DNA from: Algibacter pacificus
GTDB lineage: Bacteria > Bacteroidota > Bacteroidia > Flavobacteriales > Flavobacteriaceae
Length of the DNA stretch: 64,000 nucleotides
Assembly (NCBI RefSeq): GCF_008033385.1
Contig: NZ_VOGY01000007.1
Coordinates: forward strand, 62,001-126,000
Direction of reading: 5' to 3'
The notes beneath the pieces are model-generated. The model was not told where the DNA came from. It ran no database searches and saw only the letters and a program-made list of their open reading frames with translations. The translations under genes and the position numbers were made by a program. Each line of letters starts with the position of its first letter. The stretch's first letter is position 1. Below, piece by piece: positions 47,445-52,628 of this stretch.

Positions 47445-47479
47445 AAAAAACCTGTAAATTTAGTTTTACAGGTTTTTTT
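47445..47479 (+). terminator. Terminator after the ompH pair
   Basis: AAAAAACCTGTAAA pairs with TTTACAGGTTTTTT around a 6-nt loop. A T-run follows. Confidence 0.9.
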
Positions 47480-47687: not shown

Positions 47688-48065
47688 TTACTCATTATTA
47701 TTGTCATCTTGATCATCTTTATGATCGTCAATAACATCAATATCTCTATAACGACAACACGGGTGCAAAGAAGCATAGGCTTCATCTGTGGCTTTAAGCC
47801 CCATAGTGTCATGACCAACCGCTAAAACACTAGACTTAATAGAATCTAGATTAGTTTTTCGCGCATCATAAATTAAACTTAACTCATGGGTTTTTACACT
47901 CCACACTGCCGATTTAACGCCCTTGGTTCTAATGGCACCTTTTTCTATTCTCGCTTTGCACATGGCACAAACCCCATCCACTTCAATAGTTGCTCTTTCA
48001 TTTTTATTCTGTGAAAAACTTAGTGTTGTGGTTAATAGTATTGCAATAATTAATAGTTTTTTCAT
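47688..48065 (-). CDS. Periplasmic heavy-metal-associated (HMA) domain protein
   Basis: The 125-residue protein has a signal peptide (cleavage after SFSQ, about residue 19). One HMA domain has the metal-binding motif GVCAMCKARIE (Cys33, Cys36). The C-terminal end adds a vicinal pair, Cys103-Cys104 (HPCCRY), and a tail rich in Asp, His and Asn. This suggests capture of a soft metal such as copper in the periplasm. It is the last gene of a four-gene minus-strand set, 24 bp after the TonB receptor. The metal is not determined. Confidence 0.88.
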   Translation of the reverse strand: MKKLLIIAILLTTTLSFSQNKNERATIEVDGVCAMCKARIEKGAIRTKGVKSAVWSVKTHELSLIYDARKTNLDSIKSSVLAVGHDTMGLKATDEAYASLHPCCRYRDIDVIDDHKDDQDDNNNE

Positions 48066-48089
48066 AATATATATTTTAAGTTGTTATTA

Positions 48090-50330
48090 TTAAATAATTT
48101 TAAATCGTAATCCCATATAGTAATTAGAACCAAAAATTGGTCCGTAAACAAAAGTGGAGTCGAAATTTGCTCCAAAAGGATCATCGGCCCCTAGAATAGG
48201 CTGGTCTTGCCTTACATTGGTAATATTTTCACCGCCTAAATACACTTCAAACTTAGGCGAAAACACATGAGTAACCTGCGCATTTAACGTGCCTATAGTT
48301 GGAGAATATTCGGGTAATTGATATTGAAACGGATTGGATGCTGTAGATGAAAAGCGTTGCTGACTTACCCAATTAAACGTGGCATCAAATTTCCAATGTG
48401 CATTGTTTATACCTTTTGCCACCGTTTCATAAGAAGCATTGGCGAAAAACCGGTTTTTAGGAACCAAAGGCTTCTCTAGTTTACCCGATTTATAATCGGT
48501 TTTAACATCATAAAATTTATATGCCAATCGTAAATCGAACAGATTAAATGGATTGTAATTTAGTTCTGCTTGAAAACTATTCGCATAACTTTTACCTTCT
48601 AAATTATAAAAACTAATGTCTTGCGGATTTTCATAATCGACCACCACTTGATTTTTAAAATCTGTTTTATAATAATCGAAAGTCACATCGGCTTTTCTTC
48701 CAAATAAATTAAAACCTTGAAGATAGGACACGCCGTAATTCCATGCAATTTCAGGATCTAAACCATAAATATTTCCACCCGTATTCAAAATATTAATAGA
48801 TCTTGAGGTTGCAAACATTTGCTGGTTTTCGGTAAAAATATTAGCACTTCTTTTTCCGCGTCCAAAAGACGCTCGAATAGCCGATTTTTCCCATGGCGTA
48901 TAACGCGCATGTACCCGCGGTGTAACAAAATTACCCAATAAATTATGATGATCTACTCGCAGTCCTGCAGTAACATTCAATTTATCTAAATTATCAAAGT
49001 TGTATTCAAAAAAGGCACCAACCGAATGTTCTGTACGTCCATAATCCTCGAGGTTTACCATTTCATCATAATGATCGTAAGTATAGCTTACACCCGTTTT
49101 TACTTTATGGCGAGAATCACTAATTATACTGTTATAAATAGCATTGGCATACAGGCTATTGTGTGTAATATCATATTGGTTTAATCCAAAATAAGAATCC
49201 TGAACATGGTGACTAAAAGCCGTTTGCACACCAATACTTTGATAAGGAATTTCTGGATTGACATAACCTAGTTTTGATGAAATTTCATAACGCTTCGTAT
49301 CAATTTCACTACCCCAAGCATTTTCAGTTAACTTATCTGTTTCTGGGTCAAAATCCAATTCACCCATTTGTTTTTCATCGTTTAAAACCTTCAAATTAAT
49401 AAAACTAACCCATCCTTTTTCTAAATTAGTATACTGCCAACGGTTCATCAGATTTATTTGACTATACAATGGCATATCCAAAAAATTATCATGGTTAACA
49501 TCGTGTCGTTGATTGTGCGCATTACCATGCAAATACAAACCAGTGCTCCATTTATTAGATACTTTAGTATTCAAATGTGTGTTTAACTCAAAACGTCCAG
49601 CCACATTCCCAAAGAGATTAACAAACAACTTATTATCGGTTGTTGGTTTTACTAATTCCGTATTAATCTGTCCGGCAATACTTTCATAACCATTCACCAC
49701 CGAGCCAGCGCCTTTGGTTATTTGAATACTTTCAACCCAAGTACCAGGAATAAAACTCAATCCAAAAGCTTGCGATGCCCCCCGAATAGACGGGATATTT
49801 TCGGTGGCTATTAAAATATACGGACTTGTAAGGCCCAGCATTTTTATTTGTCGCGTACCCGAAACGGCATCGGCAAAATTAACATCAATAGAGGGATTGG
49901 TTTCAAAACTTTCGGCTAAATTACAGCAGGCCGCTTTTAAAAGTTCGCCACTGCTAACCGTAAAAACATTCTGAGATTGCATATAGGATTTTGAGGTGGC
50001 CTGTTTTCTAGACGTGAGCGTAACAGCATCCAAATCACTCGTTGGACGTAACCAATGTTTTATAGCCTTAGCAGAATTTACGGTTATCGTATCGGTTTTA
50101 AAACCTACGTAACTCACAATTAATTTTTTATAATTAGCCTCATAAGGCAGGCTAAATTTACCATCCATATCGGTAACCGCACCAATACTCGTGTCTAGCC
50201 AATATACGTTTGCACCGGCTAAAGCAAGCGATTTGTTATTCTCATTAGCTTCCAAAATAGTCCCTGTTATTTTCTTTTGAGAAAACAGCACTAACGGAAA
50301 GCATAACATAATATATAGTATATGTTTCAT
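48090..50330 (-). CDS. TonB-dependent receptor with an N-terminal carboxypeptidase-like domain
   Basis: The 746-residue protein has a signal peptide (ending VLFSQ), a CarboxypepD-like domain (about 20-95; SLALAGANVYWLDTSIGAVTDMDGKFSLPY), a plug (about 115-230; GTWVESIQITKGAGSVVNGYESIAGQI), and a 22-strand barrel. An unusual vicinal cysteine pair, Cys135-Cys136, sits at the start of the plug (LKAACCNLAESF). Its neighbours are HMA-type proteins, so it may import a metal or metal complex across the outer membrane. That role is inferred from context. Confidence 0.9.
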   Translation of the reverse strand: MKHILYIMLCFPLVLFSQKKITGTILEANENNKSLALAGANVYWLDTSIGAVTDMDGKFSLPYEANYKKLIVSYVGFKTDTITVNSAKAIKHWLRPTSDLDAVTLTSRKQATSKSYMQSQNVFTVSSGELLKAACCNLAESFETNPSIDVNFADAVSGTRQIKMLGLTSPYILIATENIPSIRGASQAFGLSFIPGTWVESIQITKGAGSVVNGYESIAGQINTELVKPTTDNKLFVNLFGNVAGRFELNTHLNTKVSNKWSTGLYLHGNAHNQRHDVNHDNFLDMPLYSQINLMNRWQYTNLEKGWVSFINLKVLNDEKQMGELDFDPETDKLTENAWGSEIDTKRYEISSKLGYVNPEIPYQSIGVQTAFSHHVQDSYFGLNQYDITHNSLYANAIYNSIISDSRHKVKTGVSYTYDHYDEMVNLEDYGRTEHSVGAFFEYNFDNLDKLNVTAGLRVDHHNLLGNFVTPRVHARYTPWEKSAIRASFGRGKRSANIFTENQQMFATSRSINILNTGGNIYGLDPEIAWNYGVSYLQGFNLFGRKADVTFDYYKTDFKNQVVVDYENPQDISFYNLEGKSYANSFQAELNYNPFNLFDLRLAYKFYDVKTDYKSGKLEKPLVPKNRFFANASYETVAKGINNAHWKFDATFNWVSQQRFSSTASNPFQYQLPEYSPTIGTLNAQVTHVFSPKFEVYLGGENITNVRQDQPILGADDPFGANFDSTFVYGPIFGSNYYMGLRFKII

Positions 50331-50365
50331 ATTTATTTTATAGTAATTTGGAAAACAACCTGGCT

Positions 50366-51079
50366 TTAAGCAGACATTACTAACATCATAATAGCCATAA
50401 CAATCATAATGCTGTTTTCAATAAAAGTGGCTTTGGTCATTGGCAATTTTAAAGCCGTCCCCAAACAAGCACACTGAATAGATTTTTTATCTAAAAGCGT
50501 TTTTATTACGCCAATCGTGGTGATTCCTAAAATGATTAAAGTAATAATTAATGCCGCCGAAATCTCGATACGCATTAAAAACATAACACCCAAAACCACC
50601 TCGATAAAAGGATAAACCCAACCGTAAAAAGGAACTGCTTTTGCAAGCGGATCGTACATTTTAAAACTTTCCGGAAACCCTTTTAAATCTAGCAATTTAA
50701 AAAAGCTAAAGACCACATAAAATAGCCCCATAAAATCGAGCATAAATCCTGTACCATTCCAAGGCGAATAATTTAATAAAATAGCAGCAACAGTGATATA
50801 TCCAAAAATTAAGAACAGTGGAAACAGTTGTTTTAACTCAGATGTTTCTGAGGACATAACATTCTTTTCACCCGTCTCATTTTTAGTTATTGTGTATTTA
50901 TTAGACAGTGCTTTTTGAAACGTTTCTATTGAAATATGCTGTTCCATGTCGATTACAGCTTCCAATGTTTCTAGTGAAACCGTGGCCGTTTTAACCCATG
51001 GCATGGCATTCAATTTATCTTCTACCGATGTACGGCAGCCGTTGCAAGTCATGCCTGCAACTTTATAAGTATGTATCAT
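50366..51079 (-). CDS. HMA domain fused to a MauE/DoxX-like membrane protein
   Basis: Residues 1-66 form an HMA domain with GMTCNGC (Cys12, Cys15) and the usual babbab pattern. Residues 80-237 are a four-helix MauE/DoxX-like membrane unit with YPFIEVVLGVMFL and a further pair, Cys203-x-Cys205 (QCACLG), between helices 3 and 4. This joins a metal-binding head to a redox-associated membrane part. It could pass electrons or metal ions across the inner membrane. It has no signal peptide, so the HMA head would be cytoplasmic. It is 35 bp upstream of the receptor gene. Confidence 0.88.
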   Translation of the reverse strand: MIHTYKVAGMTCNGCRTSVEDKLNAMPWVKTATVSLETLEAVIDMEQHISIETFQKALSNKYTITKNETGEKNVMSSETSELKQLFPLFLIFGYITVAAILLNYSPWNGTGFMLDFMGLFYVVFSFFKLLDLKGFPESFKMYDPLAKAVPFYGWVYPFIEVVLGVMFLMRIEISAALIITLIILGITTIGVIKTLLDKKSIQCACLGTALKLPMTKATFIENSIMIVMAIMMLVMSA

Positions 51080-51155
51080 TTTTTGAAATGTATTTGAATA
51101 ATTTTAGAGCATGATGAAATCTACGCTTTCGCGGAAAAAACAAGGATCCTATTTA

Positions 51156-51545
51156 TCAAATAATGAAAACTTGGTCTAGTACCAGAATATCGGCAACCAA
51201 AAGAGGTGGAGCATAATCTTTATGCGGAACAACCTGTGTTTCTAACCCCTCAAAAAGATTAATAAATGTATAAGAAAATGCGGTGATAAACTGCTGTTGA
51301 ATAAAATCTAAATCGTCGAACGATGATACCTTTAAATCTTTCTGTCCTTTAACAACATCGACCTCATCTTTACAACAGGATTTTTTTTCGAGAACAACTC
51401 CCGAATCCTTGCCACATTTTTGAGCTTCGGAAAACAAAGACACATCAACTAAAACATCTCCACAAAAATGCTTTTCAATGGTAAAAGACACCGTTGAAAA
51501 CAGTACTAAAAATGTCATTAGTACAGAAAAACTTTTATGTAGCAT
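51156..51545 (-). CDS. HYC_CC_PP-family envelope protein
   Basis: The 129-residue protein has an N-terminal hydrophobic segment (signal or anchor, about 5-22). It shows the three family hallmarks: H-F-C at 26-28 (KHFCGD), C-C at 57-58 (KKSCCKDE), and P-P at 113-114 (YAPPLL). Cys44 is a further cysteine. The family's function is unknown; it commonly lies next to HMA and TonB-receptor genes in Flavobacteriia. The start is ATG 51545; a GTG four codons earlier is the alternative. It is the first gene of the four-gene set. Confidence 0.85.
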   Translation of the reverse strand: MLHKSFSVLMTFLVLFSTVSFTIEKHFCGDVLVDVSLFSEAQKCGKDSGVVLEKKSCCKDEVDVVKGQKDLKVSSFDDLDFIQQQFITAFSYTFINLFEGLETQVVPHKDYAPPLLVADILVLDQVFII

Positions 51546-51561
51546 TATTTTTATCACGCAA

Positions 51562-51569
51562 CAAAATTA
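51562..51569 (-). promoter_or_regulatory. Likely promoter -7 element for the cysteine-rich cluster
   Basis: On the minus strand TAATTTTG matches TAnnTTTG and lies 16 bp before the ATG of the HYC_CC_PP gene. A -33 element is not clear. Confidence 0.5.
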
Positions 51570-51698: not shown

Positions 51699-52439
51699 AT
51701 GCAAGAACAAACACAAATTTTTGGTATTAGAGCCATTATAGAGGCCATTAACGCTAACGAAACTATTGATAAAGTATTCCTTCAAAAAGGATTGGATGGC
51801 GATTTATTTAATGAATTAGAATCTTTATTAAATAAAAAATCGGTTAACAAATCTTATGTTCCTGTAGAAAAACTGAATAGATTAACCAAAGGCAACCACC
51901 AAGGTGCCGTGGCGCAAATATCTCCCATTGAATTTCATGATATGGAAACTTTAATTGAAGAAGTTGTGCAATCGGGAAAAACACCTCTTTTTTTATTACT
52001 CGACCAGTTGAGTGATGTACGTAATTTTGGTGCTATTATCCGTACGGCAGAATGTACAGGGGTTAACGGAATAATCATTCAGAAAAAAGGTGGCGCTCCA
52101 GTAAATGGCGACACGATTAAAACCAGTGCTGGCGCGGTGTTTAAAATTCCCATTTGTAAAGTAGACCATATTAAAGATGCCGTGTTTTACATGCAAGCAT
52201 CGGATATAAAAGTGATTGCAGCAACCGAAAAAACAAACAATACCTTATACGATGTTTCTTTTGTGGAACCTTGCGCAATTATTATGGGATCGGAAGGTAG
52301 AGGGATTAATCCTTCCACGTTAAAAGTGGTTGATGCTAAAGCGAAACTCCCTTTATTGGGTGACATTGAATCGCTAAATGTTTCCGTGGCTTGTGGTGCT
52401 TTTTTATACGAAGCCGTAAGACAGCGCATGGCTAAATAG
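51699..52439 (+). CDS. rlmB: 23S rRNA (guanosine-2'-O)-methyltransferase RlmB
   Basis: The 246-residue TrmH-family enzyme carries an N-terminal substrate-binding domain (IFGIRAIIEAINANETIDKVF) and the SPOUT domain: motif 1 LLLDQLSDVRNFGAIIRTAE, motif 2 AIIMGSEGRGIN, motif 3 LNVSVACGAFLYEAV. RlmB methylates a conserved G in the 23S rRNA peptidyltransferase region. The stop is followed without a gap by a 7-bp tandem repeat. Confidence 0.9.
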   Translation: MQEQTQIFGIRAIIEAINANETIDKVFLQKGLDGDLFNELESLLNKKSVNKSYVPVEKLNRLTKGNHQGAVAQISPIEFHDMETLIEEVVQSGKTPLFLLLDQLSDVRNFGAIIRTAECTGVNGIIIQKKGGAPVNGDTIKTSAGAVFKIPICKVDHIKDAVFYMQASDIKVIAATEKTNNTLYDVSFVEPCAIIMGSEGRGINPSTLKVVDAKAKLPLLGDIESLNVSVACGAFLYEAVRQRMAK

Positions 52440-52502
52440 TTGTTGGTTGTTGGTTGTTGGTTGTTGGTTGTTGGTTGTTGGTTGTTGGTTGTTGGTTGTT
52501 GG
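52440..52502. repeat. 7-bp tandem repeat (TTGTTGG) x 9
   Basis: Nine perfect head-to-tail copies of TTGTTGG occupy 63 bp, starting on the base after the rlmB stop codon. It lies between rlmB and the convergent rhomboid gene. Confidence 0.95.
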
Positions 52503-52565: not shown

Positions 52566-52628
52566 AACTGCGACTGTGACTGCGACTGCGACTGCGACTG
52601 CGACTGAGACTGCGACTGCGACTGCGAC
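52566..52628. repeat. 6-bp tandem repeat (GACTGC) x about 10
   Basis: Ten near-perfect copies of GACTGC plus a partial GAC follow head to tail. Three copies vary (AACTGC, GACTGT, GACTGA). It lies 63 bp after the 7-bp repeat and 29 bp past the rhomboid stop. Confidence 0.95.

Follow-up and report, generated by a model that had tools for sequence, protein, structure and literature searches.

The subject of this report is a set of four genes in a 64,000-nucleotide stretch of the Algibacter pacificus genome (contig NZ_VOGY01000007.1, positions 62,001 to 126,000; hereafter the window), in which a TonB-dependent receptor and a small periplasmic HMA-domain protein probably form the core of a copper-handling system. 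The four open reading frames all lie on the minus strand, between 47688 and 51557, are separated from each other by gaps of 24–76 nucleotides, and encode, in this order, a HYC_CC_PP protein, a fusion of HMA and MauE domains, the receptor and the HMA protein (Table 1). A first-pass annotation of the window had proposed the same set, with these families, order and coordinates, and had drawn attention to paired cysteines in every product; both the genes and the named pairs were confirmed from the reading frames and the family profiles. The HYC_CC_PP protein has an N-terminal signal or anchor segment followed by H30-x-C32 (the pair HFC), C48, the vicinal pair C61-C62 and a PP near the C-terminus. 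The fusion protein joins an HMA domain (residues 4–60), bearing C12xxC15, to a MauE membrane domain (116–234), bearing C203xC205. The receptor displays the domains of a TonB-dependent transporter, with a signal peptide, a CarbopepD_reg_2 domain (21–89), a plug (119–220) that contains Cys135-Cys136, and a barrel. The last protein has a signal peptide, C33xMC36 and a tail with C103-C104. All profile scores lie above the curated cut-offs listed in Table 1.

Table 1. Coordinates of the four genes and of associated features in the window
Feature	Position	Strand	Basis
HYC_CC_PP protein, 133 aa, GTG start	51156..51557	-	NF047658, 133.9 bits (cut-off 28)
HMA-MauE fusion, 237 aa	50366..51079	-	Pfam MauE (PF07291), 64.7 bits (cut-off 27); Pfam HMA (PF00403), 40.8 bits (cut-off 24.8), and CxxC
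TonB-dependent receptor, 746 aa	48090..50330	-	Pfam domain matches: TonB barrel 94.9, CarbopepD_reg_2 51.9, Plug 31.2 bits
Codons of plug Cys135-Cys136 (motif AACCNLAESF)	49923..49928	-	sequence
Periplasmic HMA protein, 125 aa	47688..48065	-	Pfam HMA, 32.8 bits (cut-off 24.8), and CxxC
Codons of HMA tail CC (Cys103-Cys104)	47754..47759	-	sequence
TAnnTTTG (-7) promoter box TAATTTTG	51562..51569	-	4 nt ahead of start codon
Terminator-like hairpin 3' of the operon, before the convergent gene	47445..47478	-	14-bp stem, then T run

The cysteines of these proteins are strongly conserved. Every cysteine of the HYC_CC_PP and HMA proteins, the tail pair of the latter included, is invariant in 26 of 26 orthologs, as is the plug pair of the receptor in its 26 close orthologs. 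Mean column identity in these families is 0.60–0.75, and because the cysteines are invariant or nearly so against this background, their conservation exceeds what chance would give. The plug pair is found in 120 of 121 receptors from the Flavobacteriaceae and the wider Bacteroidota, the remaining one being cut off by a contig end, and is often the only two cysteines in a receptor of about 745 residues. Among the 30 other plug domains encoded by the same genome, one contains any cysteine and none a CC. More distant relatives of the receptor (277–287 bits with the receptor profile) lack the pair and represent another subfamily. The tail CC of the HMA protein also recurs in the HMA proteins that end Cus clusters and in the HMA-receptor fusions described below. 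The emphasis that the first-pass annotation had placed on paired cysteines thus holds for the unusual ones, namely the plug CC, the HMA tail CC and those of HYC_CC_PP; it does not extend to the CxxC motifs, which are typical of HMA domains, or to the CxC motif, which is typical of MauE. The D/H-rich tail of the last HMA protein, likewise singled out there, proved variable among orthologs.

Conservation of gene order identifies the receptor and the HMA protein as the constant pair. The HMA gene adjoins the receptor gene in 65 of 65 Flavobacteriaceae loci, and a HYC_CC_PP gene lies upstream in 57 of them. Twenty-five of these loci were reached through HYC_CC_PP and are biased towards its presence, whereas the other 40 (L079–L118) were fetched through the receptor; HYC_CC_PP is present in 32 of these 40, even though they were chosen largely for the lack of a strong HYC_CC_PP match in the first search. 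An estimate from genome size predicts that chance alone would put one or two HYC_CC_PP genes no more than 6 kb from the receptor in about 1% of genomes. Outside the Flavobacteriaceae, the HMA domain is adjacent or fused to the receptor in 45 of 56 loci, and HYC_CC_PP is detected by profile in 35 of 56, with additional HYC-like proteins spotted by eye. The first-pass annotation had named a lack of co-occurrence, or of conservation of the cysteine pairs, as grounds for refuting its proposal; neither was found, since a single operon recurs across the phylum and the unusual pairs are kept. The four-gene composition needs amending: receptor and HMA protein are the core, HYC_CC_PP usually stands in front of them, and HMA-MauE is an optional member, present in 25 of 65 Flavobacteriaceae loci and in 1 of 56 elsewhere; other loci lack it or have a CopA-type ATPase in its place. 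In the locus L059 (8292–10277), and also in L117, extra genes inserted in the operon encode a 255-residue protein that matches no Pfam family, another HMA protein and a protein with NHL repeats.

The strongest evidence that the receptor and the HMA protein act together comes from natural fusions. Twelve relatives carry one or two HMA domains as an N-terminal part of the receptor itself and retain the plug CC; the tandem arrangement of two domains is seen in seven of the twelve, which all belong to a single family within the same order. Tandem HMA receptors are encoded at L167–L173, and among the genes upstream in several of these loci are those for a two-component system, for a lipoprotein-like product in which HRCD/HRCE motifs are repeated, and for a cysteine-rich protein ending in WQPPK.

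The receptor family is single copy and chromosomal. It is found once per genome in 95 of 150 Flavobacteriaceae genomes and, at a threshold of E <= 1e-80, in 107 of 395 genomes of the phylum. Algibacter luteus and Polaribacter sp. Hel1_85 are examples of laboratory marine flavobacteria with the operon. Among 72,556 plasmid records four carry it, and one of these has chromosomal housekeeping genes. A 68-kb 'plasmid' of Parabacteroides distasonis (NZ_OY725762.1; L299) has ftsK, smpB, metH and trxB beside the receptor, and looks like a misassembled chromosome fragment.

The first-pass annotation had suggested a relay for a soft metal, copper or another. Several lines of genomic context support a metal and narrow the choice. 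In this genome, paralogous HYC_CC_PP and HMA genes flank two efflux clusters, CusA-CusC-CusB (L039) and CusA-CusC-CopA-CusB (L040), both of which end with the same type of HMA protein with a CC tail. Where HYC_CC_PP occurs away from the receptor, CusA and CusC are the next genes in 14 of 14 loci. Seven P1B ATPases are encoded within 4 kb of the receptor, some of them exactly in the slot of HMA-MauE, and all seven carry CPC, the Cu(I) motif of P-type ATPases. In addition, YHS-domain proteins adjoin the receptor at L135 and L147, and the operon at L114 encodes an AraC-type regulator whose N-terminus has CxxCK. Taken together, the paralogous Cus clusters, the CPC motif of ATPases encoded in these operons and the natural HMA-receptor fusions indicate that the metal is very probably copper. 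That silver, mercury, zinc or another soft or transition metal is the ligand instead seems to us very improbable: CxxC sites do bind Hg, Zn, Cd and Ag as well, and the HMA domains give weak, sub-threshold MerP and MerTP scores, but every linked P-type ATPase belongs to the CPC class, the linked resistance-nodulation-division systems are close to CusA, and among the genes of the operons listed none specific to mercury was noticed, though no search aimed at mer genes was made. Candidate copper sensors are short regulators of the AraC type whose N-termini carry the motif MVCDRCK, encoded within the receptor operon or next to it (L114, 1772–2338; L134, 4718–5284).

The first-pass annotation had also raised a thiol-redox circuit. 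HMA-MauE, in the manner of MauE with its thioredoxin partner MauD, would then carry electrons over the inner membrane and keep the cysteine pairs reduced, copper being secondary. Its own cysteines are conserved in at least 15 of 16 orthologs, its MauE domain has the CxC of the family, and the sole other MauE protein of the genome has CGC at the equivalent place. No MauD-type thioredoxin gene is present in the window operon, and a TlpA/thioredoxin-like gene occurs in three distant operons (L120, L127 and L141), which themselves lack HMA-MauE. The MauE domain with its CxC and these thioredoxin-like genes fit a redox circuit, whereas the loss of HMA-MauE from most loci, in which the receptor, the HMA protein and their cysteine pairs stay, and the linkage to HMA, Cus and CopA, which indicates a metal, speak against it. 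As a self-standing explanation we consider it quite improbable; the two ideas are compatible, in that the redox activity could support a copper system. Where present, HMA-MauE may either move Cu(I) across the inner membrane or supply electrons that keep the cysteines reduced.

TonB-dependent receptors are importers, and 13 receptor-bearing streamlined genomes of 1.3–2.6 Mb are informative on the direction of transport: all 13 encode the haem-copper oxidase subunit COX1, and in 11 of them the receptor and the HMA protein persist in the absence of both CusA (E <= 1e-60) and P1B ATPases (E <= 1e-40), with the reservation that several of these genomes are incomplete (66–99%) and some of the absences may be false. 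A PepSY_TM-like gene, of the type that accompanies CrtA, the copper-importing receptor of Bordetella, is found in or after the operon in 3 of about 120 loci. Three features thus favour import over detoxification: a receptor of the TonB type is central, streamlined genomes keep it and the HMA protein without CusA or P1B ATPases, and a PepSY_TM protein accompanies it in a few loci.

The opposing view is that of a copper detoxification module, induced by excess copper, in which HYC_CC_PP and the HMA protein would scavenge copper in the periplasm and feed it to CusCBA, while the receptor would import a chelator or act as a sensor rather than feed copper to the cell. It is suggested by the HYC_CC_PP and HMA paralogs that enclose CusCBA and CopA genes, by the CPC ATPases in or next to the operon in seven loci, and by a Haliscomenobacter plasmid on which a CusA/CzcA gene is near the receptor. 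The importing nature of TonB-dependent receptors, the retention of receptor and HMA protein in 11 of the 13 streamlined genomes, and the single-copy, chromosomal character of the family, with so few plasmid records, all argue the other way, and we regard a detoxification module as unlikely.

The reading that we prefer, and think probable, is accordingly a chromosomal copper-handling operon of the Bacteroidota, with the TonB receptor and a periplasmic HMA copper chaperone as its core, and with copper uptake as its most likely function. Besides the incompleteness of the streamlined genomes, other observations weigh against it. HYC_CC_PP, HMA proteins and sometimes CopA also belong to efflux systems, so that a detoxifying role is conceivable for part of the operon. 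Three receptor-bearing genomes (G381, G490 and G494) lack COX1, in one case with the receptor beside a CPC ATPase, and for this reason the supply of oxidases cannot be its sole role; COX1 itself, present in 372 of 395 genomes of the phylum, is too common to reveal a link with the receptor. Finally, in an AlphaFold model of the natural HMA-receptor fusion at L124 the HMA domain and the barrel are good, but the plug and linker have predicted local distance difference test (pLDDT) values of about 30–50, and the position of the CC is not readable. Foldseek matches this modelled relative to PfeA, FepA, BtuB and OprC, all of the TonB-dependent transporter fold.

Beyond a single copper-linked unit, the steps of a thiolate relay are ones that we infer from the arrangement of domains and cysteines. 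Copper, as ions or as a chelate, would be carried over the outer membrane by the receptor and would emerge into the periplasm through the plug pair or close to it. The HMA protein, with its CxMC motif and CC tail, would take the metal over from the plug, whether free or tethered, buffer it and deliver it to copper proteins of the envelope. A sharper version of uptake, which we offer tentatively and consider possible rather than probable, is a Cu(I) importer of the outer membrane whose chaperone is either dedicated to it or built in; the plug CC would hand copper directly to the HMA domain, tethered or free by lineage, and HYC_CC_PP would be shared by import and Cus efflux.

HYC_CC_PP is placed in copper handling because in the loci examined its genes are followed either by the receptor operon or by CusA. 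In 44 sequences from across the phylum, C32, C48, C61 and C62 are invariant down to 15–25% identity, and H30 and P117-P118 are conserved at 90% or more; distant operon members score 42–60 bits with the curated NF047658 model. It would be a small exported or membrane-anchored copper-thiolate protein at work in the receptor system and in Cus efflux alike, perhaps buffering copper or acting as an adaptor. An AlphaFold model of the protein (predicted template modelling score 0.42) yielded no structural relative, and literature searches found no paper that names the family, for which the present context would be a first functional setting. Many HYC_CC_PP proteins end, past the conserved PP, in a conserved hydrophobic F-[LI]-I, which hints at a binding or targeting signal.

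The receptor is a TonB receptor by family and not a member of the OprC, NosA or CrtA groups. With OprC/NosA of Pseudomonas (TIGR01778) it shares the TonB-dependent architecture, a cysteine in the plug and a link to copper acquisition. The copper site of OprC consists of CxxxM in the plug and HxM in the barrel (PMC8610252), whereas the window receptor lacks this combination, has CC135-136 as its only conserved cysteines and possesses a dedicated HMA partner; it has no match to TIGR01778 (cut-off 472 bits) at E up to 10. Two more TonB receptors of the genome do carry CxxxM-HxM, namely L159 (C4:183948-185840), which scores 242 bits with TIGR01778 and is under the cut-off, and L160 (C1:463828-465579), so that the genome probably has three copper-linked receptors. 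An initial alignment had matched the CC to CxxxM in an OprC-like receptor, but the conserved KG motif of the plug showed it to be wrong: the CC precedes this motif by 69 residues in the window receptor, the CxxxM by 21 in L159.

The Bordetella copper receptor CrtA (BfrG) is likewise a TonB-dependent receptor implicated in copper supply and is encoded with a PepSY_TM protein (PMC12914433, PMC13038864), of a type also seen in the few loci mentioned above. Members of the CrtA family conserve neither cysteine nor methionine, and HMA and HYC_CC_PP partners are not described for them (PMC12914433); membership was rejected in view of the invariant CC and because a PepSY_TM-like gene, the partner in most CrtA loci, is present in just 3 of about 120 loci here. 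The CusCBA clusters of Bacteroidota resemble the receptor operon in having HYC_CC_PP in front and, in this genome, the HMA protein with a CC tail at the end, but the receptor operon has no CusA, CusB or CusC, and the TonB receptor is its central machine. MerT/MerP and MerTP similarly combine a periplasmic HMA protein with an inner-membrane protein bearing an HMA domain; here MauE is unrelated to MerT by these profiles and an outer-membrane receptor is added, and the MerTP and MerP scores, 27–32 and about 20 bits, fall far below the curated cut-offs of 180 and 92.55.

Literature searches found no paper describing this receptor-HMA system, and a copper inventory of Bizionia names an OprC-like receptor as the only one for uptake (PMC11213822). 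The operon is real, conserved and apparently undescribed. Little is known of how copper crosses the outer membrane of Gram-negative bacteria; the receptors characterised so far, OprC and CrtA, come from Proteobacteria. For the Bacteroidota, which are dominant in the sea and the gut, the present family provides a widespread candidate for this passage with a recognisable marker, AACCNLxESF, and the fusion of the chaperone in some lineages makes the hand-over step testable within one polypeptide.

The signals that bound the operon differ in strength. The promoter placed by the first-pass annotation at 51562–51569 can be upheld: the TAnnTTTG box lies upstream of 75 of 95 HYC_CC_PP genes, against 24 expected by shuffling, and the spacing to the start codon is nearly constant in most of them. 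Since the orthologs begin with ATG or GTG at the same place, the GTG at 51557 is probably the true start. Given its position, the operon mRNA would be nearly without a leader; HYC_CC_PP start codons in general are often only 4–9 nucleotides past the -7 box, which suggests leaderless or near-leaderless mRNAs. The hairpin at the other end is weak evidence alone, since the number of hairpins in the region equals the shuffle mean. Two short tandem repeats adjoin the operon between convergent genes, at 52439–52502 and 52567–52628; they are perfect or near-perfect, consisting of nine copies of GTTGTTG and ten of ACTGCG.

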